Of a DNA stretch of 64,000 nt, positions 1,533 to 19,510 are shown piece after piece. Each line of letters begins with the position of its first letter. Position 1 is the first letter of the stretch. The notes beneath the pieces were generated by a model. That model was not told the DNA's origin and did no database searches. It worked only from the letters and a program-made list of their open reading frames with translations. Origin of the DNA: a virus; IMG/VR virus record IMGVR_UViG_3300010389_000001, positions 62,001 to 126,000 of that record. One strand, 5' to 3'. A program made the translations under genes and the position numbers.

Positions 1533-1541
1533 GGAGCAAAA

Positions 1542-1733: not shown

Positions 1734-1747
1734 GTCGAAAAGCCCTG

Positions 1748-2797: not shown

Positions 2798-2835
2798 TTG
2801 TAACCTCAAGATAACACTTAATATTAGTAGTAAAA

Positions 2836-3111
2836 ATGAACAAGCTAGATGACTTTAGAGAAATGATCGATGGTATTGACGACGAGCTTCTGTTAGAAGC
2901 TGGACTTGCCTTAACTAGAGATATGATTCGTTACAATGAAATGAAGAGGGAGATGGCCAAAATCGAAGAGTCTTTCACAGAGGGGCAGAAGGCTATTTTC
3001 TATTTCTTTGCAGACTCTCTGGATGAAGATGAGATTGTTTTTGCCGCAGAAAGAATCTCCGGAAGAATGAAGAGGCTTCAGACAAAATCAGTGAAAAAGG
3101 ATGGCGAATAA
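2836..3111 (+). CDS. Hypothetical protein, 91 aa
   Basis: No family recognised. It is divergent from the minus-strand gene at 1748-2797, with about 27 bases between them that must hold both starts. The product is an acidic, Met- and Glu-rich helical protein, probably a single helical bundle, with a basic C-terminus. Its stop codon lies inside the long inverted repeat that precedes groEL, so its 3' end and the groEL leader are physically linked. Confidence 0.65.
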   Translation: MNKLDDFREMIDGIDDELLLEAGLALTRDMIRYNEMKREMAKIEESFTEGQKAIFYFFADSLDEDEIVFAAERISGRMKRLQTKSVKKDGE

Positions 3112-3157
3112 TGGTAAGATAGCTATTGATAAATAGCTGTTTGCGATTACCATTATT
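3107..3157 (+). promoter_or_regulatory. Long inverted repeat in the groEL leader
   Basis: AATAATGGTAA (3107-3117) and TTACCATTATT (3147-3157) are perfect 11-bp complements. They enclose a second perfect hairpin, AGCTATT-GATA-AATAGCT (3121-3138). No T-tract follows, so it is not a simple terminator. The repeat ends four bases before the TAGGAGA ribosome-binding site of groEL. Its position recalls CIRCE operators of bacterial groE, but the sequence is different. It could be an operator, an RNase III site or an mRNA structure controlling groEL. Confidence 0.6.
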
Positions 3158-3171
3158 ACATAGGAGATATA

Positions 3172-4773: not shown

Positions 4774-4779
4774 AAAATA

Positions 4780-4807
4780 TTGCACCATATCCCAGCCCGG
4801 TTATAGG
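4780..4807 (+). promoter_or_regulatory. Repeated promoter-like element, copy 1
   Basis: TTGCAC, 16 bases, TATAGG. The sequence from 4780 to 4807 is identical base for base to 17109-17136 and shares its first half with 10377-10404. It lies between the groEL stop and a GGAGG site for the gene at 4834, so it probably starts a new transcription unit. It could be read by host sigma70 or by the phage sigma factor. Confidence 0.65.
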
Positions 4808-4833
4808 TTGGTGTAGAGCGGAGGCTAGGTTTT

Positions 4834-5097
4834 ATGAGTGACTCTAATGTTGTAGAGATTGTCAGCACTTTGCGAGATAGTGGTGTTGATGAGTCGGTTC
4901 TTTATAGGTTGGCGGCCCTGGGCATCAATTATGTTTATTCCTCGTATCGCTCTGATAAAGTAGAGCTTATGAGGCAATACGGAATGTTGCCTAAGAAAGT
5001 TTTGATTGAGATGTGGGATGACTTAGATGTAAAGCTTAAGGTTGAGTATGTTAACGAAAATTCCGAAGACTTCAAAGAGTGGATGAGAAATGGCTGA
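4834..5097 (+). CDS. Hypothetical protein, 87 aa
   Basis: No family recognised. It is the first gene after the repeated promoter-like element and has a GGAGG site nine bases upstream of its ATG. The protein is acidic and helical; the segment VDESVLYRLAALGINYVYSSYRSDK resembles a single HEAT-type or armadillo-type helical unit, although this is weak. It overlaps the next gene by eight bases, so the two are coupled. Confidence 0.65.
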   Translation: MSDSNVVEIVSTLRDSGVDESVLYRLAALGINYVYSSYRSDKVELMRQYGMLPKKVLIEMWDDLDVKLKVEYVNENSEDFKEWMRNG

Positions 5098-5923
5098 TGC
5101 AATCGACAAGTTTGTTGCGGAAGGTCTTAGTTCTATCTTCGTTGGCGGGTATAGGTCGCGCGGAATTAATGGCTTTGGTCTTCAGATTCTAAACGATCCG
5201 GCGTTTGAGGTATACTTCTCGAATCTTATTAGTTCAGATGATTGGACTTCGGAGGCGGCACTTCACCGTATTGCAAAGACATTTTTGCAGGCGAAAGAAG
5301 ACGAAAATGGGGCGGAACCATCATCCTTCTGGAAGGATAGCTTTGCACGCTTTTCCAGCCCAGAGTATGTATCAAAGCATGTTGCAGGCTACGTCAGAGG
5401 TAACTGTCCTCATATTGAGTATGGCATGGAGATTAATGATAATCTTCAGACGTACACCCTGTTTGAGCTAGTCAGCGATAATCTCATCAAGAACAACTGG
5501 ATTAATTCAAGGTGGCTGTATCTCCTGAATAGGCTAGGCGAAGAAAGCCCGCTATCTCTCAAGCTATTGGTTGATACCAAGTTGTTTGGCAAGAGCAAGG
5601 CTGGTCGCCCAAAGTCTGCCGTTAGAGGTCGCATGTACCGAAAGTACATTGAGTGTGGCTTTCTTGATCTAAAGACTGCAAGAAAGATTCGCTCCGAATC
5701 TTCGGAAGAAGCCTCAGTCGCAGGAGTTAAGGCCCTGCTCGAATGTGGGGATATTTACGAAAATCATACGGACCTGTTGCTTAGCTTTTCTGATTCAAGG
5801 TATCCTGATGTTCTTTACGCCCTAGCCAATGGACTTCCAGTTTACCTTCTATCTTCTCTGCTTGGAACAGAGAATGATTGGGTCAGGCGTACAGTAGAAG
5901 CAAGGATGAATTCCGGAGAGTGA
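5090..5923 (+). CDS. HEAT-like helical protein, paralogue of 13047 and 13813 genes
   Basis: Not matched to a named family. It is 277 aa, all-helical in appearance, with repeating units of a hydrophobic helix pair toward the C-terminus, like HEAT or armadillo repeats. The last helix ends W-V-R-R-T-V-E-A-R-MNSGE; the products at 13047 and 13813 end in the same W...LE.RMNSG style. That shared C-terminal signature suggests a small paralogous family made for protein-protein contacts. It overlaps the preceding gene and is followed by the next after two bases. Confidence 0.68.
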   Translation: MADAIDKFVAEGLSSIFVGGYRSRGINGFGLQILNDPAFEVYFSNLISSDDWTSEAALHRIAKTFLQAKEDENGAEPSSFWKDSFARFSSPEYVSKHVAGYVRGNCPHIEYGMEINDNLQTYTLFELVSDNLIKNNWINSRWLYLLNRLGEESPLSLKLLVDTKLFGKSKAGRPKSAVRGRMYRKYIECGFLDLKTARKIRSESSEEASVAGVKALLECGDIYENHTDLLLSFSDSRYPDVLYALANGLPVYLLSSLLGTENDWVRRTVEARMNSGE

Positions 5924-5925
5924 TT

Positions 5926-6192
5926 ATGGATGACTTTGTGTGGTTGGAAAAGCCTTTGCATAAAAATAACTTTCCAAAGAACTTCTTTGAAGATAATAAG
6001 GGAGTTCTAGAAACTTTAAAGCTGTCATTTGATGGCTCTATTGTTGCCGTGAAGCGCGATCTAGTTGAGAAAGAATTTGAAGCTCAACAGGTAGATATGA
6101 TGAGGCTTGGATATAAGCCATGGCCAGAAAAGGTGAGGGTTGAATCTGTAGAATCATTCTATAATTACCTGGCCCTTTGGGTTGAGATGTAA
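5926..6192 (+). CDS. Hypothetical protein, 88 aa
   Basis: No family recognised. I start it at ATG 5926, two bases after the previous stop, rather than at an in-frame upstream start that would overlap that gene by 46 bases. The protein is basic to neutral, rich in Lys, Phe and Trp, without membrane segment. It is the last gene before a strong terminator, closing the unit that begins at 4834. Confidence 0.65.
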   Translation: MDDFVWLEKPLHKNNFPKNFFEDNKGVLETLKLSFDGSIVAVKRDLVEKEFEAQQVDMMRLGYKPWPEKVRVESVESFYNYLALWVEM

Positions 6193-6213
6193 AAAACAGC
6201 TAATAAAAAATAT

Positions 6214-6247
6214 AAAGCCGAGAGGATTTTTCCTCTCGGCTTTTTTT
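6214..6247 (+). terminator. Rho-independent terminator
   Basis: AAAGCCGAGAGGA, loop TTTT, TCCTCTCGGCTTT, followed by a run of T. The stem is a perfect 13 bp and is the clearest terminator of the window. It closes the unit 4834-6192. Confidence 0.93.
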
Positions 6248-6286
6248 GTTATATGCATCATGGAATTCAATTAGGTAGAATAAAAT

Positions 6287-6733
6287 ATGGATAACTTTAT
6301 ATCTCATAAACAAAAGTTAGTGAAGCTTGCCGGCCCCGAAGAGGGAGGGCTCAATGATCCAAGGACAGGGCTTCCGATTTATGTGACAACGACTGTGAGA
6401 AAAAAGTATAGAGAATACTTCTCTGAGGAAAAGGCTCTAAGGTATGATCGAGAGATTTACTCTGACCTGAGAAACAAGCAGCTAAACCAAATAATTGCTC
6501 AGGACTTTGCTGCAAGCGCCAATGGGGTTGTTCATCATTTCTTAGCAAACTCTTCCGATGTAGCTTCCCGCAAGAGACATTGGATAGAAATAAGAAAAGT
6601 TTATACAATGAGAAGGCCTTTTAACATTTTTCTATCTATAATTGGATCAAGTTTTATAACAATAATTGGAGTCAACACATCCTACTTTAAGCCAAAAAAA
6701 CCTAGAATGATGTCTCCAAAGGCTTTTAATTAA
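6287..6733 (+). CDS. Hypothetical protein, 148 aa
   Basis: No family recognised. The N-terminal two thirds is charged and helical. Near residue 112 there is a hydrophobic stretch (FNIFLSIIGSSFITIIGV) that could be one membrane segment, followed by a short basic tail with KPKKPRMM. It is the first gene after the 6214 terminator and leads into a run of proteins that share a helical motif. A virion or membrane-linked role is possible but unproven. Confidence 0.68.
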   Translation: MDNFISHKQKLVKLAGPEEGGLNDPRTGLPIYVTTTVRKKYREYFSEEKALRYDREIYSDLRNKQLNQIIAQDFAASANGVVHHFLANSSDVASRKRHWIEIRKVYTMRRPFNIFLSIIGSSFITIIGVNTSYFKPKKPRMMSPKAFN

Positions 6734-6750
6734 AAAGAATCGGAATTGAA

Positions 6751-7317
6751 ATGTATAAAAAGGCAAACTCACCTCCTCCATACTGGCAATCTATTTTAAC
6801 AAAGATAAAGAATCTAGGGCTAAGGCCAGAGATAATGGCGATGCTTAACAACTTCAATCAGATAGTGTGGGATGCGGCCCCGCCTCCTTCTGAGCCAAAT
6901 GCTGTAGCGTATGTTACAAATGAAGACAAGAATGGTGACGGAAAGATAGATAAGATACACTTTGTTTTAAGCAAATTTCCTCCAAACGCAAATGAGGATG
7001 AGATGGATGCCATTGTTGAGATGGTTGCAAAAACTTTGGTGCATGAATATGGTCATATCGAAGATTTTAATCCAGAAACAGGCGAATTTCCCGGAGGCGA
7101 AGCTGCCGCAGAACAGGCGGAGAGAGCATTCGAGCCGGTGCTAAGACAAAGGCTTGAGCAAATGGCTCCAGCTAATAACAATAGTTCCTTTGAAGGAATG
7201 TCTGCTGCAGCAAAGCTGGAGATTATTAGAGATTTGGTTAAGATATCAAACGCCCTGGATAAGCATGGCTTGATTAAAGAAGCAGATATACTAGATGGAT
7301 TGATCAAAAAGAGTTAA
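6751..7317 (+). CDS. HExxH zinc metallopeptidase-like protein with EF-hand-like loop
   Basis: The central motif LVHEYGHIEDF (near residue 98) is an HExxH zinc site. A downstream GGEAAAEQAERAF segment could give the third ligand, as in zincins. Before it lies DKNGDGKID (near residue 64), a textbook calcium loop of EF-hand or dockerin type. The C-terminus has the helix LVKISNALDKHGLIKEADIL, the motif repeated in neighbouring proteins. No signal peptide is seen. Likely a small calcium-stabilised metalloprotease acting on virion precursors or carried in the virion; the substrate is unknown. The zinc motif is directly seen, the role is inference. Confidence 0.78.
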   Translation: MYKKANSPPPYWQSILTKIKNLGLRPEIMAMLNNFNQIVWDAAPPPSEPNAVAYVTNEDKNGDGKIDKIHFVLSKFPPNANEDEMDAIVEMVAKTLVHEYGHIEDFNPETGEFPGGEAAAEQAERAFEPVLRQRLEQMAPANNNSSFEGMSAAAKLEIIRDLVKISNALDKHGLIKEADILDGLIKKS

Positions 7318-7377
7318 GAATCCTACTAATAATTCATGTTATTTGGAATGACAAACAAAATATCTGGAGATATTAAA

Positions 7378-8466
7378 ATGCTAAAAGAATTAGTAAAGCT
7401 AGCAAATCATCTAGACTCTATTGGTCATAGAGACTTATCTGATGATTTAGACTCTGTTATAAGAAAGATGGCTCAAGCCACGACGGGCCAGACTATGAGC
7501 GGAGCACTTTCTGAATTTGAATATGGCAAGTCATTGCTAACCCCCTCTCGTGAGGCGGCGGTTAAAAAGACCAAAGAGATCCTTGCGAATATAGAGAACT
7601 CTGTGTATGGCGATCAAGTTACACAGTTATTCCGTGGTTCGCCAACTGGCAGAAAACTCTCTGGTGCAGCCCCCGATTTTGAGCAGGCTCCCGCTCTCAG
7701 GTGGCAGCTAGAGACGATTATTAAGTCATTAGGCGAAGCCAATTTGCCCTTTGAAAAAGAACTCCTTGAGGAAGATAAGGATGAACTCAAAGCCTACATT
7801 GAAAGGGCCGAAACGGAGAAGAAAAGTGTGATGCTTGCTGAGCAGGCCATGGCTCAAGAGACGGACTCAGAATCTGATACCATGGCGGCCAGGGGCGATA
7901 TGCCCGATGAGTCAGAGGGCGTTATTCGTAATAACGAAGATATAATGGCTATCGAGAGTATAATTGGGGCACAGGCCACTGGCCAATTTCCTTTCAACAA
8001 GGGAACTTATTTTGCTCTCAAGGCATTCTTAGAGGCTAATGCTGATAAGCTGTCTCACTCAGAGCATAGCCCGGAAGATTATGTGCAAACAATCCTCGAT
8101 ACTGGCCCGGAAGGGTTTTCTGTAAGGGGCGGAGAGCATGCGAGAATAACGGGCAGAAGCTTCCGAGACTGGCGAAATCTTATAGAGGATCTTCAGATGA
8201 CCACAAGAAGAGGCGTCGCCCAGACAGCCCAGATGGTAACAGCCTCTCATGATGGCGATTACATGTCAGAGTTTCACGCTAGAAGCATTGAAAATAGTGC
8301 CGAGGAGATCGTAGGGGATTTGGAAAGAGGCAAGAAACTTGACCCTTGGCAAAAGTCTTACTTAGCGCAAGCTGATCAAATGACGGACAGTGTTGAAGAA
8401 AGGCTTGATCAAGAGGCTAAGATTGAGGCTATGACAAAAGCTTTGGATAAGCTTTTCAAGTATTAA
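7378..8466 (+). CDS. Hypothetical virion-type protein with helical motif
   Basis: No named family. I choose ATG 7378 because CTGGAG lies 11 bases upstream and the protein then begins directly with the helical motif LKELVKLANHLDSIGHRDLS; an upstream start at 7336 is possible. The product is about 362 aa, acidic, soluble and rich in Ala, Glu, Asp and Gln, with predicted long helices and no cysteine-rich sites. It sits between two other motif-bearing proteins, four bases before the next gene. A structural or scaffold-like role is plausible but not shown. Confidence 0.72.
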   Translation: MLKELVKLANHLDSIGHRDLSDDLDSVIRKMAQATTGQTMSGALSEFEYGKSLLTPSREAAVKKTKEILANIENSVYGDQVTQLFRGSPTGRKLSGAAPDFEQAPALRWQLETIIKSLGEANLPFEKELLEEDKDELKAYIERAETEKKSVMLAEQAMAQETDSESDTMAARGDMPDESEGVIRNNEDIMAIESIIGAQATGQFPFNKGTYFALKAFLEANADKLSHSEHSPEDYVQTILDTGPEGFSVRGGEHARITGRSFRDWRNLIEDLQMTTRRGVAQTAQMVTASHDGDYMSEFHARSIENSAEEIVGDLERGKKLDPWQKSYLAQADQMTDSVEERLDQEAKIEAMTKALDKLFKY

Positions 8467-8469
8467 AAA

Positions 8470-10311
8470 ATGGCCGGCTCAGATAACGAATTATCAATAA
8501 TTGATTTAATAGAGTATTATGAGCCGGGACCGGTTTTGAAAGAGCGAACACCCAATTTAAATAGAACATCATTTTATCCTGGCGACGGCGAGCATCATGC
8601 AGAAGATGGTGAGCCCGAGCCGGGCAAAAAGGTTACAAAAAAAGCAAGGCTGGATATTATTCGGAAAAAGGCGCTTGGGTTAACCGATGTTCCCCGTGCT
8701 GCAATTCCGGGTAATGAAGGGTATCTTGGAAGAAGAGACCCCGGCACTGAAGAGGGTCAGGAAGAATTTACGACATGGTTCGGAGGGCAGGAAGATTTTG
8801 TTCTAGATAATCTTGAAAAAGAAGATAAGCTACCTACTAATAAAAAAAGAAATGAAAATAAACCTGAATCAGGAGATTTAAATAAAATGAGCTTCGAAAA
8901 ATCTGAATTACTAAAACTAGCTAAAGCCCTGAGCGTCAGAGGGCAGGTCTCTGCGTCTGATTCTGTTATTAGATTGACAAAGCAGGCTGACACGAATTCC
9001 GGTAGTAACTCGGCATTCTTCGATGGATGGGAGGAACTAACGAGGGGTGCTGGTCAAAGCCTGAGAAGCTTGACGACATGGGGAGGGGGTTACTTACCCA
9101 AAAACGCGCTGAAGGAAAGAATAGCAGATATGTGGGTCACATATGGGGGCGAACTTCGATTTGTTGATCAGAGTGGCGTAGAGAAAACTCTAGAAGCTCT
9201 TATCGAATTCTGGATAAGTCAAGATCTGAAATTTGGCCGAGGAGGAGAGCCTAATGACACAGACAAAGCAAGAGTTAAGACTTTCCTCGATGGGAAAAAA
9301 AGCACAGAGATTACTGTTGAAGGACTAATTGGCGTTATGTGGAATGACGGAGAAAGTGGATATAAGACAGGTATAGGCCAGGCTCAAACTAGCTTTACGG
9401 ACATGGTGCAGGATGAAACAAAAACATTTGTTGATGCATGGAATAGTGTAATTAGGTACAAGCAGAAGCAGGGCACTGGCACATCAACCGGCCAGCCTGT
9501 TGCGGGTACAACTCAATCATTACCGGGAGGGACTAGCGCAGCTAAAGAGGAGCCCTGGGTGCCAGTACAGAAGAGAATTAACGAGTTATTTGCTGACGGT
9601 GGAGCACTGCAATCAAGAAGGCCCGATCCATGGGAGCCTCTAGCGACCGATGGAGATATGGGTGAGAAGTCTACCACTGCTTACAACGCAGCTACAGGAT
9701 CTAACTATGATCCCAATGCTAGACCGTGGCCTATACCAAAAGCGTTAACCCCGGAGCAGGCACTAGATGAGTTGAATGCTCAGATCGAAGAAGTCGTTGC
9801 CCCAACACCCTCTGAGCCTGCGGATACTACAAGGGGAGGAGGGCCAGGTGAGGTAGCTCCAGAAGAATCACCTATTGCCGAGGGCAAGGCCACAGGAGAC
9901 CTACAAGACTGGTATATAGCGGACTCGGATGATGGAAGCCATTATGTCGGGATAGGAAAAGAAGGAACTGAATATGCATACCAGATATTTGCAATATCAA
10001 AAGAGCCGAATGAAAGCGGCAGGCATGATGCCGTAAGAATAACCGATAGAGGTGATGATCCCAGATTCACTGGAGCAAGATTCTTGGAGGGCAAAGAGGA
10101 CGGAAGACTTATATCTCAGATAAGAAGAGATAGGCTGGGTCGAGCGCAGAGAACAAGATATACTGATGTGATCAGGGGACAGAGAAAGAGCGTTAAGGGC
10201 GATACCCGGAGAGGCAGAAGAAGAGGCGCTGAGAGAGCGGAGAGAGCCGCAGCTGGAACCAGAAGAAGAGACCTTAGGCAGAGGGGAAGATCCGAAAGAC
10301 GAAGAAGATAG
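8470..10311 (+). CDS. Hypothetical protein with Arg-rich tail and internal helical motif
   Basis: 613 aa, no named family. Residues 1-139 are acidic and disordered. At residue 140 an internal ATG (8887), preceded by AGGAG, starts the helical motif (KSELLKLAKALSVRGQVSAS) that heads other proteins here, so a shorter product may also be made. The middle contains Pro/Gly/Thr-rich linkers. The C-terminus (last 55 residues) is extremely basic, with many Arg and blocks such as GRRRGAERAER, suggesting DNA or RNA contact. The acidic front and basic tail would suit a packaged internal head protein, but that is inference. A terminator follows 34 bases later. Confidence 0.72.
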   Translation: MAGSDNELSIIDLIEYYEPGPVLKERTPNLNRTSFYPGDGEHHAEDGEPEPGKKVTKKARLDIIRKKALGLTDVPRAAIPGNEGYLGRRDPGTEEGQEEFTTWFGGQEDFVLDNLEKEDKLPTNKKRNENKPESGDLNKMSFEKSELLKLAKALSVRGQVSASDSVIRLTKQADTNSGSNSAFFDGWEELTRGAGQSLRSLTTWGGGYLPKNALKERIADMWVTYGGELRFVDQSGVEKTLEALIEFWISQDLKFGRGGEPNDTDKARVKTFLDGKKSTEITVEGLIGVMWNDGESGYKTGIGQAQTSFTDMVQDETKTFVDAWNSVIRYKQKQGTGTSTGQPVAGTTQSLPGGTSAAKEEPWVPVQKRINELFADGGALQSRRPDPWEPLATDGDMGEKSTTAYNAATGSNYDPNARPWPIPKALTPEQALDELNAQIEEVVAPTPSEPADTTRGGGPGEVAPEESPIAEGKATGDLQDWYIADSDDGSHYVGIGKEGTEYAYQIFAISKEPNESGRHDAVRITDRGDDPRFTGARFLEGKEDGRLISQIRRDRLGRAQRTRYTDVIRGQRKSVKGDTRRGRRRGAERAERAAAGTRRRDLRQRGRSERRRR

Positions 10312-10344
10312 TTTAATCATCAGATAAGGGAAAGAGACCCAATT

Positions 10345-10376
10345 AAAGCCTTCCGAAATAACGGAAGGCTTTTTTC
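10345..10376 (+). terminator. Rho-independent terminator
   Basis: AAAGCCTTCCG, loop AAATAA, CGGAAGGCTTT then TTT. The stem is a perfect 11 bp. It closes the 6287-10311 unit and is immediately followed by copy 2 of the repeated promoter-like element. Confidence 0.9.
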
Positions 10377-10404
10377 TTGCACCATATCCCATTCGGGTTA
10401 TCCC
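10377..10404 (+). promoter_or_regulatory. Repeated promoter-like element, copy 2
   Basis: TTGCACCATATCCC is shared exactly with the copies at 4780 and 17109; the second half differs (TATCCC instead of TATAGG). The element directly follows a terminator and precedes the gene at 10424, whose GAGGAGG site starts at about 10409. The position supports a promoter role even though the -10 half is poor for sigma70. Confidence 0.55.
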
Positions 10405-10423
10405 ATTCCGAGGAGGCGCCCCC

Positions 10424-11014
10424 ATGAGCCCAAAGTCGATCAGTATATTCGATACAGCCCAAACAAAGAAGCGGACGAACCGCAATAACAAGCAAAAGAA
10501 AAGTACGGCAGAAAAGCAGCGAATTGCAGATAAAGAAGCTCTGGGTAAGGCGGCTCTTCAAAAGTTAAATCCAATGGTCATCCCTCTACTTGCAGCCCAA
10601 GAAAGGCCGTCTGGATTTATCACTTCTTCAATCGATGTAATTCAGAACAATCCTCATCGTCTATCGGATAATTGGATTGAGAAGCTAAATAAGTGGGTTG
10701 ATGATGTAGCTGCCGCATCAATTTTAGAGGAGCCCGATATTAAGATCGGAGAGAGAATCGATATTGGCCCCATCATGGTAGATCGGATTATTCCTCCAAA
10801 GCTTGAATCCCAATATCCTATGCCAGCCATTATGTGCAAGGACGAAAGAGGCTGGAAGTGGTACTTTAAAACAAGTAAGGCTGGACAGTTCTCTTCTGGC
10901 GACTATATTACCTTCAGGGCAATTCCCTCCGGTCACGGAGAGGGGATTACCTTTCTGCGCAGGCCAACTAAATTGGTTAAGGTAGAAAAGAATATGGAGG
11001 AAGATAGTGATTAG
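10424..11014 (+). CDS. Hypothetical protein, 196 aa, with basic N-terminus
   Basis: No family recognised. A strong GAGGAGG site precedes the ATG. Residues 1-45 are very basic and low-complexity (Lys, Asn, Gln, Arg), then a helical segment, and from about residue 95 a beta-rich part with IDIGPIMVDRIIPPK and GDYITFRAIPSGHGEGITF that looks like a small beta-barrel or SH3-like domain. That combination would suit nucleic-acid binding. It is the first gene of the purine-related unit. Confidence 0.7.
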   Translation: MSPKSISIFDTAQTKKRTNRNNKQKKSTAEKQRIADKEALGKAALQKLNPMVIPLLAAQERPSGFITSSIDVIQNNPHRLSDNWIEKLNKWVDDVAAASILEEPDIKIGERIDIGPIMVDRIIPPKLESQYPMPAIMCKDERGWKWYFKTSKAGQFSSGDYITFRAIPSGHGEGITFLRRPTKLVKVEKNMEEDSD

Positions 11015-11097
11015 TCAGGAAGGTAGATTTGATCTATCATTAAAATATAATCTTCTATATTTTTGTTTTTACAAAATTCTATAGCAGCAGCTTTTTT

Positions 11098-11149
11098 GGC
11101 TCCTATTAATTGCCTTGGGATTAATAGAAAAGCCCAACTCCCCAAGGCA
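11098..11149 (+). promoter_or_regulatory. Possible pseudoknot or switch in the adenylosuccinate synthetase leader
   Basis: Stem 1 is CTATTAAT (11103-11110) with ATTAATAG (11120-11127), extended by GGCT/AGCC (11098-11101/11131-11134). Its loop TGCCTTGGG (11111-11119) is perfectly complementary over 9 bases to CCCAAGGCA (11141-11149), which lies 11 bases before the AAGGAGGTG ribosome-binding site. The two pairings can form a pseudoknot or be mutually exclusive hairpins. No known riboswitch consensus is recognised. Confidence 0.5.
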
Positions 11150-11174
11150 GTCATTAGAGAAAAGGAGGTGCTTT

Positions 11175-12222
11175 ATGTCCAAGCTAATCAGACTCGCAGA
11201 TGTTGTAGTTGGTTTAGCTTGGGGTTAACTACCCCGGCGATGAAGCAAAAGGGAAAATTACTGCCCAACTCGCATCAACAAGGTCAGCGTCAAACGGTGG
11301 CTCATTCTACGATTACATCGTCCGTTGGGCCGGTGGTAATAACGCAGGCCACACTGTATGGGTTGGCGGAGAAAAATTTAAGACACACTTGGTTCCATCC
11401 GGAGTATTCTATGGTGTGAAATCGATTGTTGGCCCTGGCTGTGTTTTGCACCAGGAGCACTTTAATGTGGAGCTTTCTTATCTGGAGAAGAACGGCTTTG
11501 ACCCAGGGCTGGTAAAGGTTTCTCCAAGATGCCATATTGTAACTGATGAGCACCTTGAGTATGACCGAAATAATCTTGCTAAAAAGCTTGGAACTACAGG
11601 ACGAGGAATTGCTCCAGCTTACTCTGCAAAGTTTGCAAGAACCGGAATTCTAGCAAAGGATGTTCTTCCAAGTCATATGCTGTGGGATGAGCGGCTAGAT
11701 GGCAATGTCCTATGCGAAGGAGCACAGGGCGTATGGCTTGACATTGATCATGGTCTTTATCCTTATGTAACTTCATCAACGACTCTGCCTTATGGAGCTT
11801 GCAGCGTCGGCTTTCCTCCTCAGAAGATTCGCAATATTTGGGGTGCAGCAAAGATTTATGATACAAAGTCTGGAGAGGATCCAAGATTTCCTGACTCACT
11901 CTTAGATGATCCAAAGCTTTTGAATGTTGCGAATCTTGGACAAGAATATGGCGTAACCACGGGGCGAAGAAGAAAGGTTAATTGGCTAAATTTAAATATG
12001 CTAATTGACTCTATAAATCTTTCTGGCACAACCAACTTGGTTATAAGTAAATGTGATATACTGCTTGATCTTGGAGAAGGATACTTTAATCTGTTCTATA
12101 ATGATAATATGGTGAGTTTTGCATCATTAAAGAATATGTGTGAGTTCATCACCAACGAAGTTACTTTAAACTGTCCTCTGGTAACTGAGATAAGGTATTC
12201 AAGCTCCCCTATGGAGATTTGA
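11175..12222 (+). CDS. purA: Adenylosuccinate synthetase (short PurA/PurZ0-like), reading frame interrupted in the P-loop
   Basis: Converts IMP, aspartate and GTP to adenylosuccinate, the first step to AMP. Starting at ATG 11175 with a perfect AAGGAGGTG site, the protein reads MSKLIRLADVVVGLAWG and then meets TAA at 11226. The next frame continues GDEAKGKI, NNAGHTV (catalytic His), KLGTTGRGIAPAY (IMP loop), GAQGVWLDIDHGLYPYVTSS, TTGRRRKVNW and ISKCDIL, all intact to 12222. Total length would be about 345 aa, like short archaeal and phage forms. The downstream frame has no start codon before TTG 11389, which is past the P-loop and His. An active enzyme therefore needs recoding of the 13-base break, unless it is a mutation. 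The Asp of WGDE is kept, unlike PurZ of 2-aminoadenine phages. Confidence 0.85.
11221..11238 (+). other. Candidate translational bypass site (take-off GGT, stop, hairpin, landing GGC)
   Basis: GGGGT (11221-11225) pairs with ACCCC (11231-11235) around loop TAACT. The glycine codon GGT (11223-11225) is followed at once by TAA (11226-11228); the glycine codon GGC (11236-11238) follows the stem and is in frame with the rest of the enzyme. One tRNA-Gly (GCC anticodon) can read both. A hop from GGT to GGC gives W-G-D-E-A-K-G-K, the exact conserved P-loop. The layout mirrors T4 gene 60. No other read-through or single frameshift restores the motif without adding residues. Confidence 0.5.
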
Positions 12223-12223
12223 T

Positions 12224-13045
12224 TTGTCTAACGTAACTGTTCTTTATCACGCAGGCTGCCCCGATGGCTTTGGCTCTGCGTGGTCTTTCTACAAAAAGTA
12301 TGGCACTAAAGCTGAGTATATACCCGTTCGTCACGGAGATCTTCCTCCAGACGTTACAGGAAAGACTGTTTTTATTGTTGACTTTTCTTATCCCAGGACT
12401 ATACTGGAGGAAATGCACGCGGCAGCAGAATCGCTGACGGTAATAGACCATCACATTACTGCCCAAGAAAGTCTGCATGGCTTAGACTATTGCCACTTTG
12501 ATATGTCTCATTCCGGCGCTTATTTATCATGGGCCTTTCTCTTTGGAGAAGAAGACGTACCGCTTTTAATTAGGTATATTGAGGATAGAGATTTGTGGAA
12601 GTGGCAGCTTCCTTCTGCAGAGCAGATTTTATCTGCTATAGATTCGTATGACAAGAGCTTCTCCACTTGGGACTCTTTAAATGAGAAGCTAGATGAGCCT
12701 CATTCGAGGTCATGGTTTAAGCTGCACATTGAGGGCTCTGCAATCTTGCGCTATAACAAGCAGCTTATCGAGAGGCTGAAAAAGAAAGAGCATACAGTAA
12801 AGATTGGCGATGATACTATCCGCGCTGTAAATTCTCCATTTTTTCAATCAGAGATAGGCGCTCAATTGAGTCGCGGTGAAAAGTATGCTGCTGTTTACTA
12901 TTATGATGGAGAAAAGTATGTCTTCTCGCTTAGGTCGGACGAAGATGGAGAGAATGTCTCTGTAGTGGCCAAAAAGTTTGGAGGAGGAGGCCATAAGAAA
13001 GCTTCTGGTTTTTCGGTTATGAACATCTCTGATTTGGAAAAGTAA
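12224..13045 (+). CDS. DHH/DHHA1-family phosphoesterase
   Basis: Manganese-dependent phosphoesterase of the RecJ/NrnA superfamily, which degrades oligonucleotides or cyclic dinucleotides. Motifs in order: HAGCPDGFGSAW near residue 8 (first metal site), IVDFSY near residue 50, VIDHH near residue 75 (DHH motif) and GGGGHKKASGF near residue 253 (DHHA1 substrate motif). At 273 aa it matches compact NrnA-like proteins rather than RecJ. The start is TTG 12224 with GGAG seven bases upstream; it follows purA after one base. It may recycle nano-RNA or pApA to mononucleotides, feeding the purine genes around it. Confidence 0.87.
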   Translation: MSNVTVLYHAGCPDGFGSAWSFYKKYGTKAEYIPVRHGDLPPDVTGKTVFIVDFSYPRTILEEMHAAAESLTVIDHHITAQESLHGLDYCHFDMSHSGAYLSWAFLFGEEDVPLLIRYIEDRDLWKWQLPSAEQILSAIDSYDKSFSTWDSLNEKLDEPHSRSWFKLHIEGSAILRYNKQLIERLKKKEHTVKIGDDTIRAVNSPFFQSEIGAQLSRGEKYAAVYYYDGEKYVFSLRSDEDGENVSVVAKKFGGGGHKKASGFSVMNISDLEK

Positions 13046-13046
13046 A

Positions 13047-13811
13047 TTGACTATCAAGAACAGTGTAACGAAGAAGATTCGCGGAATGAAGCTGCCGCAT
13101 AATCCGTCAACTCCATGGAGGTCGGTAGAGCTTCTGAGCGTTGACTCCATGCTAGAAGACGCCGATGAATCGGAATGCCTTTCCATTGCCATGGATGAGA
13201 CGGCATTAACTGAAATCGCAAGACATTTGCATTCGAGAATGTCAAAGAACGGCCTTCCAACATCCCCTTGGTATGAGCGTTATATTGAGAATAAGCTTTG
13301 CGCTTCTTTTATTATGAAGCTTGCCAGCAAATCGGATGAGCTTCTTAAGAAGTCAAAGAACCATCGCCTAAAGTTGGCTCTATTTACCGGAGGACACTAT
13401 CAGTCAGTCGAAATGATTGATTGGATTGCCGAAAATTCAGAAGATATAGATCTTGTTGTTGCCGCATCAAGAGTATGTTCAATTTCAGTTCTTAGAAAAA
13501 TATCGAAGAAGAAGGATGCCCTTAGGTTGGTCAAGACTATCGCATACGAAAGGCTAGGGCCTGTAGAGTGTCTTGATGAAATGATTAATGATAAATACGC
13601 AAAGAATAGAGAGATGGGTTATAACTATGCTCCGCATGGCTATCCGCCCCTAGAAGAGAAGGCTCTAACCGAAATCGCAAAGGGGCCTACGATAGCTTTA
13701 ATTAAAAAGCTAAGCTCGGAGTATTTGCCAATGCTAATGGCGAATAGGAATGTATTAAAGAATCGGTGGATTGCTAGTTATCTTGAAAAAAGAATGAACT
13801 CGGGAAAGTAA
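13047..13811 (+). CDS. HEAT-like helical protein, paralogue of the 5090 gene
   Basis: Unnamed family. It begins at TTG 13047, one base after the phosphoesterase stop; an ATG at 13086 is possible but has no good ribosome-binding site. The 254-aa product is predominantly helical with repeats such as ENSEDIDLVVAASRVCSISVLRKISKK, resembling armadillo/HEAT units. It ends WIASYLEKRMNSGK, the same C-terminal signature as the 5090 product. Likely a protein-interaction scaffold; its partner is unknown. Confidence 0.68.
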   Translation: MTIKNSVTKKIRGMKLPHNPSTPWRSVELLSVDSMLEDADESECLSIAMDETALTEIARHLHSRMSKNGLPTSPWYERYIENKLCASFIMKLASKSDELLKKSKNHRLKLALFTGGHYQSVEMIDWIAENSEDIDLVVAASRVCSISVLRKISKKKDALRLVKTIAYERLGPVECLDEMINDKYAKNREMGYNYAPHGYPPLEEKALTEIAKGPTIALIKKLSSEYLPMLMANRNVLKNRWIASYLEKRMNSGK

Positions 13812-13812
13812 T

Positions 13813-14757
13813 ATGTACTTCGGTGATGTAACTGTTGAAGCAAAAGATGTAGAGCTAAACTCATTTCCGGATGAGGTGTATGAATATGCCCTGGTACACG
13901 CCTGCCAGGAGTATTCTTATTGGAATAACAATAAAACTTCTGTTATTACAAGCTTCTTTACTGGAGGCAGGCTCCTAAAGATCTGGAACAATTACCCTAA
14001 CCTAAGGGATAGTATATTTGATAATATTGTTCTGAGATTTTCGGTTGTAGATAGATCTCTTTCCGCAAAGAATATGGTGACCGAACGTCAAGATATTAGG
14101 CGCTCGTGCTCTGAGATTGCCAAGAAAATCTTGGAAAGTCAGTCTGACAACTTTTCCAGACATTGGGTCGATAAAGTTGACCGAATGGTAGGGGCTGGCA
14201 TTCTGAGTAAAAGCTGGGACCATAAGAGCATTCTTTCTTCTATGGAGGAGTATGACGAAGAGTATATGTACTGGCTTAAGAAGTATATTAAAACTCTAAA
14301 ACAAGGAGATGAGAAGGCTTTCGAGGAGCTTTATTTCTCTGTAAAAAGAGGAAAGGGAGCAACGGAAGTAAGAGACTTTATTTTAAGGAAGTCCTTGGAG
14401 TACGGAGCTTTGTCAAATAAGATTCTTGAAAAAATTGCTAAGTCCTCGCCAATCTCTCTTCGCAGAACGATCGTACAATGGCTTTCTGCCGATAAGCACG
14501 ACCTACTTAATCGACTCTCCTATATGAAGAGGAACGATTATAATGGAGGGTATACGGATGAAGATTTCAAGGATATGCAAGAAAAAGCTGACGCCATAGA
14601 TTCTAAGCTTATACTGTTTGCGCCCATTCAAGATATGAATGTTCAGATTAAGTTGGTCGATGTGCTGAGTAAAGATAATCTTGTATGGTGTGTTCCTGCC
14701 GTTTCCTCCCTAGGGAGTTCATGGCTATCTTCAAGACTAGAAAAGAATATGTCATAA
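13813..14757 (+). CDS. HEAT-like helical protein, third paralogue
   Basis: Unnamed family, 314 aa. The ATG lies one base after the previous stop. Helical repeat character is seen throughout (for example ISLRRTIVQWLSADKHDLL), and it ends WLSSRLEKNMS, a divergent version of the W..xLExRMNSG ending of the 5090 and 13047 products. Two of the three paralogues are adjacent here, so a tandem duplication is likely. Confidence 0.65.
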   Translation: MYFGDVTVEAKDVELNSFPDEVYEYALVHACQEYSYWNNNKTSVITSFFTGGRLLKIWNNYPNLRDSIFDNIVLRFSVVDRSLSAKNMVTERQDIRRSCSEIAKKILESQSDNFSRHWVDKVDRMVGAGILSKSWDHKSILSSMEEYDEEYMYWLKKYIKTLKQGDEKAFEELYFSVKRGKGATEVRDFILRKSLEYGALSNKILEKIAKSSPISLRRTIVQWLSADKHDLLNRLSYMKRNDYNGGYTDEDFKDMQEKADAIDSKLILFAPIQDMNVQIKLVDVLSKDNLVWCVPAVSSLGSSWLSSRLEKNMS

Positions 14758-14772
14758 AAGACTGGAGTAATT

Positions 14773-14961
14773 ATGTCAAAAGGTCTGCTGTTAAAAATTA
14801 AGGTTACCAACCTAGACTCAAAGCAAGAGTATATTCACTCAAATGTTCCGCTAGATCACGTAGAGATGATTAAGATGAATCCAAACCTAAGAGTAGAGGT
14901 TATAGGAAGAAGTCGCGGCCGCACTAGGGGGCCTAGAAATCAGGACGAATCGAGTCAGTAA
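14773..14961 (+). CDS. Hypothetical protein, 62 aa
   Basis: No family recognised. Small protein with a beta-rich front (LLLKIKVTNLDSKQEYIHS) and a basic Arg/Gly tail (GRSRGRTRGPRN) that could touch nucleic acid. ATG 14773 is preceded by CTGGAG with a short spacer. It ends the helical-protein group; about 50 bases of intergenic sequence follow. Confidence 0.6.
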   Translation: MSKGLLLKIKVTNLDSKQEYIHSNVPLDHVEMIKMNPNLRVEVIGRSRGRTRGPRNQDESSQ

Positions 14962-15009
14962 TATATCAAGTGTGATAATGCAAGCTATAGCTGGAGGCAA
15001 GAACAGGTA

Positions 15010-15660
15010 ATGTATACGGCCAGTTTTGTTGACCATATCAAGAATACTATATTCATCTTATTTTTTTCGATTTACTCAGCCACCTTAAGTGCTGAGGCGG
15101 CTGAGCCTTATAAGAGTTCATTTATCAAGCATGTCAGAACCGAGACCGTTATGGACAAAGTTCTGGTTATCGAGAATGGAAGCTCTAGGCTCAAAACGCC
15201 GGTCACCATATCTTATGAGGTGGGTAAGGGCGACTATATTCGACAAAAGTATACCGAAGAATATATCAAAAATAACTTTGCATTATCGCACATGATTGTT
15301 ATGGATGAGCTAAAGGGTATTGGTGTTACTCCAATCGAGTGTCGCTCTCCCTACGAGTTGCATATTTTTATCCTTCATCCAGACACAATGTACTCTTCGA
15401 ATTTATTTCAGAAATTCAGAGAAGAATATAACTACCATTATAAAATTCACGCCTTTTTTGATGCAACGGTTGAAGTAAAGGGGCACAACAATATTCTTCT
15501 ATCTGACATGGGCGACTGGGAAAATTACCAATCTATCCAGCATGAACATGCTCATTATTGGTGGCTCCGGTATTGTCTAAAGAAGCATTATCCATCTTCA
15601 GAAGACTTTGCTCGTTTGATAGAGAGAAAAGCGGAGACAACTTACAATGAATATTTTTAG
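15010..15660 (+). CDS. Secreted HExxH zinc metallopeptidase-like protein
   Basis: The N-terminus has a basic start, a hydrophobic core (TIFILFFSIYSATLSA) and a small-residue cleavage region near AEAAEP, so it is a probable Sec signal peptide. The mature part ends with QHEHAHYWWLRYC near residue 176: HEHAH fits the HExxH zinc motif, and E-R-K-A-E-T later could supply a third ligand. It is 216 aa. A phage-encoded exported zinc peptidase could act in the periplasm or cell wall at lysis or for exclusion of other phages; this is inference. Its 3' end overlaps the IMPDH gene by 14 bases. Confidence 0.68.
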   Translation: MYTASFVDHIKNTIFILFFSIYSATLSAEAAEPYKSSFIKHVRTETVMDKVLVIENGSSRLKTPVTISYEVGKGDYIRQKYTEEYIKNNFALSHMIVMDELKGIGVTPIECRSPYELHIFILHPDTMYSSNLFQKFREEYNYHYKIHAFFDATVEVKGHNNILLSDMGDWENYQSIQHEHAHYWWLRYCLKKHYPSSEDFARLIERKAETTYNEYF

Positions 15661-16741
15661 GCCAGGAGACTCTCTCGAAAAGTTAGATGCCCCACCGGCT
15701 TTTGATGATGTGCTGCTTGTTCCAAGATACTCTGGGCTTGCCTCTCGATTGGAACCGAATATTAGCACTTCACTTTCCACCTCTTTCGCCTTAGAGGTTC
15801 CGGTCGTATCTTCTCCGATGGATACTGTTACCGGATCTCAGATGGCTTCTGCTATCGGCAGAGAGGGCGCAATGGGTGTGGTTCACAGGTTTATGTCTCC
15901 AGAAGATCAGGCCGGAGAGCTTCACCGTGTATCTGACTTAAATCAAGGCCCAGGAGATCCTGCTCCACTTGCCTTTGCGGTCGGAGTGGGCTCTTCTGAG
16001 AAAGAGAGATTCGATAAAGTTTATTCTCAATTTGAATCTGCCATCGATTGGGTATCCATAGACGTTGCAAACGGTCACTCTAAGTATATGGCCGAAATGC
16101 TAAGCTGGATAAAGGATCGAGTATCACCTGATACAAATATTATGGTTGGCAATGTTGCGACTGGCGATGGGTACAAGTTTCTTGCTGATCGTGGCGCCGA
16201 TGCAATTCGCGTTGGGATAGGTGGCGGAAGCATCTGTAAAACCAGAATTATGACAGGCTTTGGCGTTCCTACTCTTGCTTCAGTTGCGGATTGTTATAAG
16301 GCAAAGTTGAGCGGCAATTATAACTCGTCAATTATTGCCGATGGAGGAATCAGGTATCCATCCGATTTGGTTAAGTCTTTGGCCTTCGGGGCAGACGCAA
16401 TAATGGCTGGAAGAATATTTGCGGGAACCTTAGAGTCACCTGGCGAAACAGTTATTGTTGACGGCGTAAAATCAAAAACCTATAGAGGGATGGCGTCAAG
16501 AGAGGTTCAGGAGGACAAGCGCGGAGGCTTAAAGCCTGGAACCTGCGCAGAGGGTGTATCAACCCATATTCCAATAAAGGGTAAGGCCAGATATATTCTA
16601 GAAGAGTTCTCGGGCGGTTTGAGGTCTGCCATGACTTACTGTAACGCAAGAGATATTGCAGAACTCAGAGAGAATGTTAGGTTCATTAGAATGTCTCCGT
16701 CATCTCTCGACGAGTCTCATGCATTTGGAACAAAAGTTTAG
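15647..16741 (+). CDS. guaB: IMP dehydrogenase without CBS domains
   Basis: Oxidises IMP to XMP, the committed step to GMP. Motifs: [13 protein letters not shown] near residue 18, [16 protein letters not shown] near residue 51, [20 protein letters not shown] near residue 230 (phosphate site), [17 protein letters not shown] near residue 195 with the catalytic Cys, [12 protein letters not shown] near residue 282, and [15 protein letters not shown] near residue 325. At 364 aa the two CBS domains are absent, as in phage and some bacterial short forms. GMP reductase has a related fold, but [13 protein letters not shown] and GGLRSAM favour IMPDH. With adenylosuccinate synthetase it covers both branches from IMP. 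Confidence 0.88.
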
Positions 16742-16749
16742 GAGGTAGC

Positions 16750-17079
16750 ATGTCGAATGCCGACTTTGAAAATGCTGTTTTAGATAGGCTTTCGTCTATT
16801 GAGAACAGGCTTTCTTCAATCGAAGATAGTCTAACTGGAATAGGTGATTTTGCATCAGATATTATTTCTGACGAATCGAGCCCGCTAAATCTAGAGATGC
16901 TAGAGTCACTGAAGACGACTCTATCTTCACTATCTGTTCCGCTCGATTCATTTGATCCGACTCAAGGAGTCGATAAAGATAATATGTCATTCGAGGAGGT
17001 GGTTGGATCATTAAACGAGTTTAAAGATAGAATTGCAGGCATCAGAAACGCTATGGCTGCAGCAACTGAAAAAAGTTAG
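16750..17079 (+). CDS. Hypothetical coiled-coil protein, 109 aa
   Basis: No named family. A strong AGGAGGT site precedes the ATG, eight bases after the IMPDH stop. The first 35 residues form a heptad pattern with two near-repeats (LDRLSSIENRLSSIEDSLTG), a typical oligomerising coiled coil. The remainder is acidic. It probably closes the purine unit, since copy 3 of the promoter-like element follows. Confidence 0.65.
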   Translation: MSNADFENAVLDRLSSIENRLSSIEDSLTGIGDFASDIISDESSPLNLEMLESLKTTLSSLSVPLDSFDPTQGVDKDNMSFEEVVGSLNEFKDRIAGIRNAMAAATEKS

Positions 17080-17108
17080 TAGGCAAACTGAATTCGGGTG
17101 CAAATTTC

Positions 17109-17136
17109 TTGCACCATATCCCAGCCCGGTTATAGG
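17109..17136 (+). promoter_or_regulatory. Repeated promoter-like element, copy 3
   Basis: TTGCAC, 16 bases, TATAGG; identical over 28 bases to 4780-4807. It lies ahead of the MoxR ATPase gene, with an unusually GC-rich stretch (17137-17170) between the element and the ribosome-binding site. It probably drives the 17190-19510 unit, which ends at a terminator. Confidence 0.65.
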
Positions 17137-17189
17137 TAGGCGTGGCACCGGGCCGCGCCGAAAATTTCCCCCCAAAGAGGTTGTTTAAG

Positions 17190-18266
17190 ATGAATATTGC
17201 ACAGACCAAAGAAGTTCTCAAGGATATGCCTGCCGATAAGTCGGTTATGCTTCACGCTAAGCACGGCGTTGGAAAGTCCTCTGTTGTTCGCCAGGCTGCA
17301 GAAGAAATTGCTGCTTCTACTGGCGAAGAGTGCGGGTTTTTCGATGTTCGACTTTCGCAGTGCGAAGTTGGCGACATTAAGGGAATGCCTGTTACTGATG
17401 AGGAGCGAGACATTATTCGCTTCCTAAAGCAAGAGTGGTGGCCCCGTGCTATGGATTCAAAGGGCATCCTTTTCTTCGATGAGCTTAACCGAGCATCAAA
17501 GGATGTTCTTCAGGCTGTCTTTGAGATTTGCCTTGACCGTCGCCTTGATGGCGAAAAGCTGCCTGATGGTTGGCGCGTAGTCGCTGCGGTTAACTCCGAT
17601 GATGACTACGATGTTGTTGAGCTTGACCCTGCTCTGCATGATCGCTGGTTCCATATCGAGTTTGACCCCTCTGCTGAAGAGTGGCTCACCTGGGCTCGTA
17701 GCAATGGAGTCCACAAGGCTGTCGTGGAGTTTGTTAACCGCAATCAGAATCTTCTGGACCCTCCCGTTGGAAACCTGGAAGCAGGTCGCGTTTACCCGTC
17801 GCGTCGTAGCTGGGTTTCACTCTCTGATACCATGATCTACATGGGACTTGATTCTCGAACGGATGATGGTATGCTAACCCAAATCACTAAGGGCTGGGTT
17901 GGTCGAGAGATTGCTGTAATGTTCCAGAAGTTCATTACCAATGAGTTCTCAAACCTTCGTCCAGAAGAAGTCATTGACTCCTACGATAAGGTATCTGGAA
18001 AGATTGAAGCTGCTTGCAATGACATTGAGGTTATCGCAGCCCTTTCCCGCTCTGTTGTAGCGGAGGTCAATGAGCGTAGCCTTACGACTATGAAGGAAAA
18101 GCAGCGTACCAATCTTCGCAAGTTCTTTATGGCTCTGCCGCCTGACGTAGCATCGCAGGCTTGGGTCGGTCTTCTTGCCGGTAAGAAGTCGAAGAAGATT
18201 GTTATGGAGTGGCAGTCTGATGAGGACTTCCGTGAGCATCTTAAGGTGATTTACCTTAGCAACTGA
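17190..18266 (+). CDS. MoxR-type AAA+ ATPase
   Basis: ATP-dependent chaperone-like AAA+ protein. Walker A is HAKHGVGKSS near residue 25; Walker B is GILFFDELNRA near residue 92; AAVNSDDDYDVVELDPALHD near residue 130 carries sensor 1 and the following helix, and the arginine finger region is DRW. About 358 aa. I start at ATG 17190 with AAGAGG upstream; an earlier in-frame GTG at 17142 lies in the GC-rich leader. It is followed by a VWA/metallopeptidase gene, the typical MoxR-VWA pair, which in bacteria remodels complexes or inserts metals. In a phage it may help virion assembly. Confidence 0.85.
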   Translation: MNIAQTKEVLKDMPADKSVMLHAKHGVGKSSVVRQAAEEIAASTGEECGFFDVRLSQCEVGDIKGMPVTDEERDIIRFLKQEWWPRAMDSKGILFFDELNRASKDVLQAVFEICLDRRLDGEKLPDGWRVVAAVNSDDDYDVVELDPALHDRWFHIEFDPSAEEWLTWARSNGVHKAVVEFVNRNQNLLDPPVGNLEAGRVYPSRRSWVSLSDTMIYMGLDSRTDDGMLTQITKGWVGREIAVMFQKFITNEFSNLRPEEVIDSYDKVSGKIEAACNDIEVIAALSRSVVAEVNERSLTTMKEKQRTNLRKFFMALPPDVASQAWVGLLAGKKSKKIVMEWQSDEDFREHLKVIYLSN

Positions 18267-18364
18267 TTTGGGGAAACCCACAGGGGGGCACAGGGTTATC
18301 AGGTGTCCCGCTCACTCTTTCCTCAAAAGATATTGAAACCCACCTGTTTGCGAGGGGATAAACA

Positions 18365-19510
18365 ATGGCTAACTCACAGATTAGAGCGCGACTTGATTCC
18401 GCTATTTCAAAACTTATCTCTTTTCAGCCGCTTTACGGTGAGGTTTTCCTTCATCTAAACAAGCGCGAAAACAAGGAGATTCCAACGATGGGCGTTGGAG
18501 TTATCCGTCGCGTAGATTTGGCTCTTTACTACAATCCAGATTTCGTCGCAGGACTTAGCTCAACTGAGCTTAGAAGCGTCCTTAAGCATGAGGCTTTGCA
18601 CGTTCTTCTGCATCATCTTACGCGAGCAAAGCACTTTGCTTACAATCCTCGTGGATACAACATTGCTGCAGATTGTGCAATTAACTGTCATATTGAGGGG
18701 CTTCCAGATGGAGCCCTTTATCCAAAGCAGTTTAACCTCGATGATAACCAGTCTTCTGAGTTCTACTACGAGAAGCTAAAGAAGGAAGCAGAGGACAAGC
18801 ATGGAGGAGACTTCGACAAGGCGATTGAAGGCAAGGGAGATACTGTAGACGACCACGGTATGTGGGGCGAATTTGACGACGATATTATCGAAGAGAAGGT
18901 CCGCAATATCGCAGAGAAGGCTATTAAGGAACAGGAGAAGAAGGGCTGGGGAAGCATTCCTGGCGGCCTTGCAGGTCAGATTATTGCTGCAAACAAGCCT
19001 GTTGTAAACTGGAAGAAGGAAGCTCGTTGGTTTATCAACAAGGTTGTTATGATGGGTCGTCGCAGTACCCGTATGCGCCCTAATCGTCGCTACGGAACAT
19101 CGCAGCCTGGGAGCAAGAGAAACTACACTAGTCGCCTTCTTGTTGCGTTTGATACTTCTGGCTCTGTTTCAAATAAGCAACTTGAATACTTTGCTACAGA
19201 GCTAAACGGTATGATTGACCACGTTCAGGCTGACTTTATTCAGTTTGATACCCAAATCTATGGAAAGCCAGAGCCTTACTCAAAGCGCGCTGCCAAGCTG
19301 GACATTAAGGGTCGAGGAGGCACTTGCTTTGCTCCAGTCATTCACATGGCCGATGAAGAGAGGTATGATGGTCTAGTTATCTTTACGGACGGTTATGCTC
19401 CATTCCCTGCAAAGCCAAAGACCCGTGTGATGTGGGCTGTTTGTGAGCGTGATTCAGCCGTAGAGTTTCCATACGGAAAGAAGGTTGTGATCGAAGAAAA
19501 GTCTCGATAA
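18365..19510 (+). CDS. VWA-like protein with metallopeptidase domain (DUF2201 type)
   Basis: Partner of the MoxR ATPase. The N-terminal domain has LKHEALHVLLHHLTRA near residue 75, an HExxH zinc motif, and AADCAINCHIEGLP beyond it. The C-terminal domain (about residue 255 on) has LLVAFDTSGSVSNKQL, a DxSGS MIDAS-like metal site of VWA domains, and VIFTDGYA. 381 aa. This N-terminal peptidase-like plus VWA pairing downstream of a MoxR ATPase is widespread in bacteria and large phages, with unclear substrate. An acidic linker (about residues 140-170) separates the two. A terminator follows. Confidence 0.85.
   Translation: MANSQIRARLDSAISKLISFQPLYGEVFLHLNKRENKEIPTMGVGVIRRVDLALYYNPDFVAGLSSTELRSVLKHEALHVLLHHLTRAKHFAYNPRGYNIAADCAINCHIEGLPDGALYPKQFNLDDNQSSEFYYEKLKKEAEDKHGGDFDKAIEGKGDTVDDHGMWGEFDDDIIEEKVRNIAEKAIKEQEKKGWGSIPGGLAGQIIAANKPVVNWKKEARWFINKVVMMGRRSTRMRPNRRYGTSQPGSKRNYTSRLLVAFDTSGSVSNKQLEYFATELNGMIDHVQADFIQFDTQIYGKPEPYSKRAAKLDIKGRGGTCFAPVIHMADEERYDGLVIFTDGYAPFPAKPKTRVMWAVCERDSAVEFPYGKKVVIEEKSR

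Follow-up and report, generated by a model that had tools for sequence, protein, structure and literature searches.

A gene for adenylosuccinate synthetase (purA) lies, split by a short insert, in the window analysed here, i.e. a stretch of 64,000 nucleotides that is part of a 232,533-bp virus record; all positions are given in window coordinates. The features of the locus are as follows.

11163..11168, plus strand: Shine-Dalgarno sequence AGGAGG of ORF1, read directly from the letters
11175..11225, plus strand: ORF1, 17 codons, MSKLIRLADVVVGLAWG, the N-terminal strand and first P-loop Gly of adenylosuccinate synthetase
11223..11225, plus strand: take-off codon GGT (Gly), the last codon of ORF1
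11226..11228, plus strand: stop codon TAA, immediately 3' of the take-off GGT, read directly from the letters
11226..11238, plus strand: insert TAACTACCCCGGC, 13 nt including the landing codon, bypassed in the proposed reading
11236..11238, plus strand: landing codon GGC (all six purA inserts end in an RGY codon)
11217..11238, plus strand: take-off hairpin by folding, stem GCU/GGC plus GGGGU/ACCCC, loop UAACU
11239..12222, plus strand: ORF2, 327 codons plus TGA, from the catalytic-loop Asp onward (PF00709)

Past the insert, the reading frame picks up again at GAT 11239, remaining open until TGA 12220-12222. ORF2 is identified as adenylosuccinate synthetase by Pfam (PF00709, 1.2e-70) and also matches solved PurA structures; it comprises 327 codons after the landing codon, within a whole open frame of 334, and not the 340 codons that an earlier note on this DNA had given for the resumed frame. 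Joining ORF1 to ORF2 raises the PF00709 score by 19 bits, from 238.8 bits for ORF2 alone to 257.8 bits (gathering cut-off 27), with the profile now filled from position 1. Measured against PurA (PF00709), the whole enzyme is present save for the insert, the window protein being of a short phage type that scores below the NCBIfam equivalog cut-offs; assignment to PurZ of the aminodeoxyadenylate pathway is not supported (NCBIfam NF038379, 79 bits against a cut-off of 300). No second purA copy was found in the whole 232.5-kb record, and neither tRNA genes nor Rfam RNAs in the window. Host-type genes near purA, at 942-19510 of the window, include a SpoU methylase, a chaperonin (3172-4773), a DHH-like phosphoesterase (12224), an IMP dehydrogenase (15647-16741) and a pair of AAA ATPase and DUF2201 genes.

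The letters bear out what the earlier note had read at the break itself: GGT 11223 is followed by TAA, landing is at GGC 11236, and skipping 13 nt yields the motif WGDExKGK. The hairpin GGGGT-TAACT-ACCCC that it had described is likewise present, and in the fold its GGGGU/ACCCC stem is extended by pairing of GCU 11217-11219 with GGC 11236-11238. The complete structure (-12.1 kcal/mol; z = -2.86 against dinucleotide shuffles) encloses take-off codon, stop and landing codon. It occurs once in the 232.5-kb record, and even a looser form of it is expected only 0.02 times by chance in the window.

About 40 purA relatives were obtained by searching viral contigs at the protein level and with sequence patterns, with all cases coming from metagenome contigs and none from a cultured phage. 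Most relatives read TGG-GGN-GAY without interruption, and the length of the P-loop is invariant among all of these empty genes. Seven purA lineages are interrupted, all exactly at the Gly/Asp junction, by six distinct inserts.

TAACTACCCCGGC, 13 nt: the window and, identically, L018
TAAAACCCCAGT, 12 nt: L006 and L017
TAAACCCCAGGC, 12 nt: L021 and L189
TGACCTTCGGGTCAATCTCAATATAAAAGC, 30 nt: L001
TGACCTTCGGGTCAATCTCAACATAAAAAGGT, 32 nt: L004 and L005
TGACCCTTCGGGGTTAACAACAACAAAGC, 29 nt: L012

Conservation of the 13-base element, which the earlier note had proposed to look for, thus holds for L018 and not for the other interrupted relatives, which carry different inserts at the same junction. 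Every insert follows a GGT take-off codon, begins with a stop (TAA or TGA), ends in RGY and forms a hairpin that encloses take-off codon and stop (z-scores of -2.9 to -4.4). There is one hairpin per element, its 5' arm consisting of the last ORF1 codons and its 3' arm of the insert, and in the folds the landing codon sits at the base of the stem or just past it. Beyond stem and stop these hairpins have little in common; the loop is UUCG in L001, L004 and L012 and UAACU in the window. In three inserts the landing codon is AGY, which pairs at two of three positions with the take-off tRNA, and GGT and GGC are presumably served by one Gly tRNA through wobble. GGT stands at the junction in 6/6 distinct inserts as against 7/31 distinct empty sites (Fisher p = 0.0007, which is indicative since the sequences are related). 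Interrupted and uninterrupted relatives alike have a peptide equivalent to ORF1 (14-17 codons) ahead of the site.

Both ORFs are under purifying selection. ORF2 is open over 318-327 codons in all seven interrupted purA genes, with pS of 0.63-0.83, i.e. synonymous sites near saturation, pN of 0.16-0.27 and a median pN/pS of 0.315, as compared with 0.316 in uninterrupted relatives. The ORF1s of L001 and L004 have diverged at 6 of 8.3 synonymous sites, as compared with 1 of 33.7 nonsynonymous ones, and the inserts are almost identical. Because of this purifying selection and the near-identity of inserts, the purA genes and, in the L001/L004 pairs, also the elements can be regarded as maintained. 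The view of the earlier note that this is not an old pseudogene agrees with these ratios, and the comparison of homologues that it had set beforehand did uncover empty relatives, yet the interrupted genes are not drifting. In a protein tree the interrupted genes cluster, with two changes needed (on an unresolved backbone) and 0 of 500 shuffles as low. The 12-nt L006 stands beside the UUCG-type L001 and L004, and the 12-nt L021 beside the UUCG-type L012; these mixed insert types within groups of the tree suggest that elements have been exchanged or turned over.

When eleven genome records were compared, purA was the sole gene broken consistently across lineages, the other breaks lying in low-complexity linkers or being isolated nonsense changes, few in number. 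A lone in-frame stop (SLTER*NKKIEDAK; L214:13826 and L276:5153) is present in both assemblies of one phage, with an intact homologue in G002, and a nonsense change at L248:2168 affects one of two near-identical contigs (VPEF*VVSN in G009, VPEFEVVSN in G008). Further searches for such inserts yielded no additional purA case, i.e. no interrupted purA in 84,980 bacterial and archaeal species genomes and none in viral contigs when longer gaps, of 34-64 nt, were allowed. There were 16 bacterial or archaeal pattern matches, and where these fell in purA, the gene was an ordinary one that the pattern had matched upstream by chance; L064, L065 and L125 were rejected as interrupted purA as they are normal in another frame.

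Similar elements occur in other phage genes. Viral contigs were scanned for Gly-stop-CC-UUCG-GG-complement, with a short upstream and a long downstream frame as filter. Nine contigs (L390, L427, L441, L422, L464, L465, L480, L492 and L395) carry such an element in a gene probably encoding a metallophosphoesterase, an assignment that relies on motifs and annotated isolate homologues, Pfam support for the family being weak. Five inserts of 22-26 nt are found here at SDTHFG^H, with GGT or GGA as landing codon, and close relatives are uninterrupted. ORF2 is under purifying selection (pS 0.50-0.78, pN 0.07-0.26 in the close set), and in two contigs the loop has changed from UUCG to UGCG, which keeps the UNCG type. 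A GT9-like glycosyltransferase gene (L420:10231-10254; PF01075, 4e-9), a single case, has a 21-nt in-frame element at RSGAFG^DNIILTP, with a core almost the same as that of the phosphoesterase element. Inserts in both genes share TTTGGTTAGCCTTCGGGCTAACTA, which is no proof of common descent because the hairpin forces much of this sequence. In contrast to purA, joining ORF1 and ORF2 did not raise the Pfam score for the phosphoesterase (L441) or the GT9 gene, so that the evidence for these elements consists of the motif and, for the phosphoesterase, also of relatives and selection. No DNA match to either element was found in isolate phages.

In a type II topoisomerase gene (L293:6721-6768, IMGVR_UViG_3300002895_000002), a T4-like element of 45 nt extends from GGT to GGC at SDQDLDG^IHIRGL, i.e. 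at the same TOPRIM codon as in T4 gene 60, with an SD-like AAAGAG before the landing site; it lies behind another ORF that also splits the gene. A T4-like case is present in L412 as well. Thus, the purA, phosphoesterase, GT9-like and topoisomerase elements are each located at a Gly of a conserved motif. Two further phosphoesterase contigs differ in kind: in L541 the phosphoesterase motif (FHL^FHNNIIKYC, just before position 601) contains CTT-TGA-AGG-CTT, which resembles a natural stop-hop of 9 nt from one Leu codon to a matching one, and in L501 (540-600) a 10-nt insert with a TAG (CAT TAGATGCTAT TTC) and an inverted repeat of 13 bp, perfectly matched, lie close to this motif, with ORF2 intact. 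A TAA version of the UUCG stem-loop gave 26 matches in viral contigs and no convincing gene, and the UUCG matches in L332, L326/L304/L340, L372, L399, L402 and L456 look like terminators or chance.

The closest known counterpart is gene 60 of phage T4, where a gap is retained in the mRNA and skipped by the ribosomes (PMC3014915). Like the window purA, T4 gene 60 has a Gly take-off codon, an immediate stop, a stem-loop around both and a Gly landing codon, it is split by a non-coding gap yet under selection, and the insertion is at a Gly of a catalytic motif, with the genes themselves being different. Three purA inserts share even the layout of the T4 take-off stem-loop (GGA-UAG-CC-UUCG-GG-CUA-UCU in NC_000866, GGU-UGA-CC-UUCG-GG-UCA-AUC in L001), and the CC-UUCG-GG core is common to these three purA relatives and to the phosphoesterase and GT9 elements. 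The likeness that the earlier note had drawn to the T4 hairpin therefore stands for a stem-loop around take-off codon and stop; it does not extend to the loop, since the window has the 5-nt UAACU instead of the T4 UUCG tetraloop stem. There are also differences of scale, with a gap of 50 nt in T4 as opposed to 12-32 nt here (13 nt in the window) and an ORF1 of 46 codons as opposed to 11-17 (17 in the window). T4 bypassing requires a signal in the nascent peptide, located about 30 residues away from the P site (PMC5009743), as well as a 5' stem-loop (PMC5009743, PMC11194080). With an ORF1 of only 11-17 codons, a distant nascent-peptide signal of the T4 type is not possible, and the window contains neither this signal nor a visible separate 5' stem-loop or SD-like landing aid (in T4, GAG before the landing site). 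The T4 bypass region itself is matched in part or whole in 54 phage records, some of them distant (Proteus, Shewanella). Isolate phages of Salmonella, Proteus and Shewanella (OQ359887, NC_055727, MT457552) show partial matches of 72-81% identity, and in Shewanella phage Thanatos-1 the match is confined to the element region.

Two other systems are related in part. The byps of Magnusiomyces capitatus mitochondria are also short inserts in otherwise intact genes that ribosomes skip, and imperfect matches of take-off and landing codons occur there too (PMC5009743). However, they are mitochondrial, number 81 sites in one genome and seem context independent, whereas the elements described here are in phage genes, have a hairpin in every case and are accompanied by no other consistently broken gene in the same genomes. 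In laboratory stop-hops, a peptidyl-tRNA jumps over a stop to a nearby matching codon, with 9 nt between matched codons (PMC5009743), as is proposed here for purA; those constructs are synthetic and without hairpin, in contrast to natural conserved elements of 12-32 nt.

As judged from the sequences, the purA element is best explained as a short form of bypassing, with 12-32 nt to be skipped behind an ORF1 of 11-17 codons, and it is very likely that full-length adenylosuccinate synthetase is made in this programmed manner. The shorter bypass suggested in the earlier note is also favoured by six inserts that share Gly take-off, stop and hairpin at one codon. Weighing against it are the ORF1s, too short for the T4 nascent-peptide signal, the imperfectly matched AGY landing codons of three inserts, the open ORF2 frame through the window insert and the purely metagenomic origin of the purA cases. 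The ribosome would translate ORF1 as far as GGT 11223-11225, where, by analogy to T4, the stop and the hairpin starting at the take-off codon would hold off termination. Peptidyl-tRNA-Gly would detach, the mRNA would slide through the ribosome, and the tRNA would re-pair at GGC 13 nt downstream, with translation continuing from GAT to give WG-DEAKGK and a predicted junction peptide VVVGLAWGDEAK. Refolding of the hairpin behind the ribosome, in the manner of a zipper, might power the slide and fix its length: because the 5' arm is the end of ORF1, the 3' arm is the insert and the landing codon is at the stem base, refolding could fit the jump to the gap. Here we infer the hop itself, its efficiency and this zipper role.

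For most of the elements, simple readthrough or frameshifting is excluded. Since insert lengths of 12, 13, 29, 30 and 32 nt leave remainders of 0, 1 and 2 modulo three, no single frame event restores all purA genes; the ORF1 frame stops immediately in every insert, and the ORF2 frame, read back, meets a stop in five of six, whereas a hop that leaves GGT and lands on the final codon of the insert yields the ancestral WG-DEAKGK for every one. Only in the window is the ORF2 frame open through the insert (VNYPG), and a +1 frameshift at GGU-UAA-C, with the stop following the shift codon, would therefore be possible there in isolation, adding residues as in WG-NYPG-DEAK. Shifts of this type at a stop are known from bacterial release factor 2 genes. 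Yet such a shift fails elsewhere, as inserts of 12 and 30 nt preserve the frame but include a stop, and those of 29 and 32 nt have a stop in the ORF2 frame; it would lengthen a P-loop of constant length in empty relatives and leaves the GGC end and the hairpin unexplained, which makes it very unlikely for the window gene. Highly improbable, too, is removal of the insert from RNA or DNA before translation, as a miniature intron or excised element. The exact position, the restoration of the ancestral protein by clean removal and the presence of unrelated inserts at one site would all fit intron insertion, but 12-32 nt is below the size of any self-splicing intron we know of, the window has no Rfam match and the contig DNA copies still contain the insert. 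Moreover, T4 gene 60, with the same stem-loop layout, keeps its gap in the mRNA for ribosomes to skip (PMC3014915).

That purA is a pseudogene, or the insert an assembly error, is barely conceivable: in its favour, the inserts are inverted-repeat-like and destroy the frame, but seven genes with open ORF2s of 318-327 codons under purifying selection and the scarcity of other broken genes in the eleven records speak against it, as does recovery of the same inserts in separate contigs and samples. A conditional switch is an addition to bypassing rather than an alternative to it: ribosomes would mostly stop and make no enzyme, with purine supply, temperature or the state of the host controlling the hop. 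Bypassing in T4 does vary with temperature (PMC11194080), and purA is a metabolic gene. However, no ligand-binding RNA motif was found in the window, little is common to the hairpins apart from stem and stop, and topoisomerase and phosphoesterase genes have the same kind of element, so that we consider such regulation unlikely.

To our knowledge, T4 gene 60 has for decades stood alone among phages and bacteria as a well-established bypass. It has been called apparently unique in a review (PMC3014915); no natural in-frame bypass was known, and shorter counterparts have long been presumed (PMC5009743). In the open-access literature, no report of bypassing was found for the purA, phosphoesterase or GT9 gene. 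Short elements of natural origin, present in several genes with matched empty relatives and in some cases in-frame, make it possible to ask directly which components of the T4 signal are required and whether a hairpin alone can drive bypassing. Current annotation software would list genes with such elements as broken or truncated. That some relatives have an element and others do not may be due to mobility or to a protective role against homing nucleases, as has been proposed for T4 (PMC5009743); the elements may also have evolved repeatedly. Overall, we think it reasonably probable that these are members of a dispersed phage family of tiny translational introns, hairpin-plus-stop inserts that recur at Gly codons within catalytic motifs, with purine synthesis, metallophosphoesterase, glycosyltransferase and topoisomerase genes as the minimum of four families, and that would be removed only by a ribosome jump that is powered by refolding of a single hairpin and does not depend on a nascent-peptide signal.
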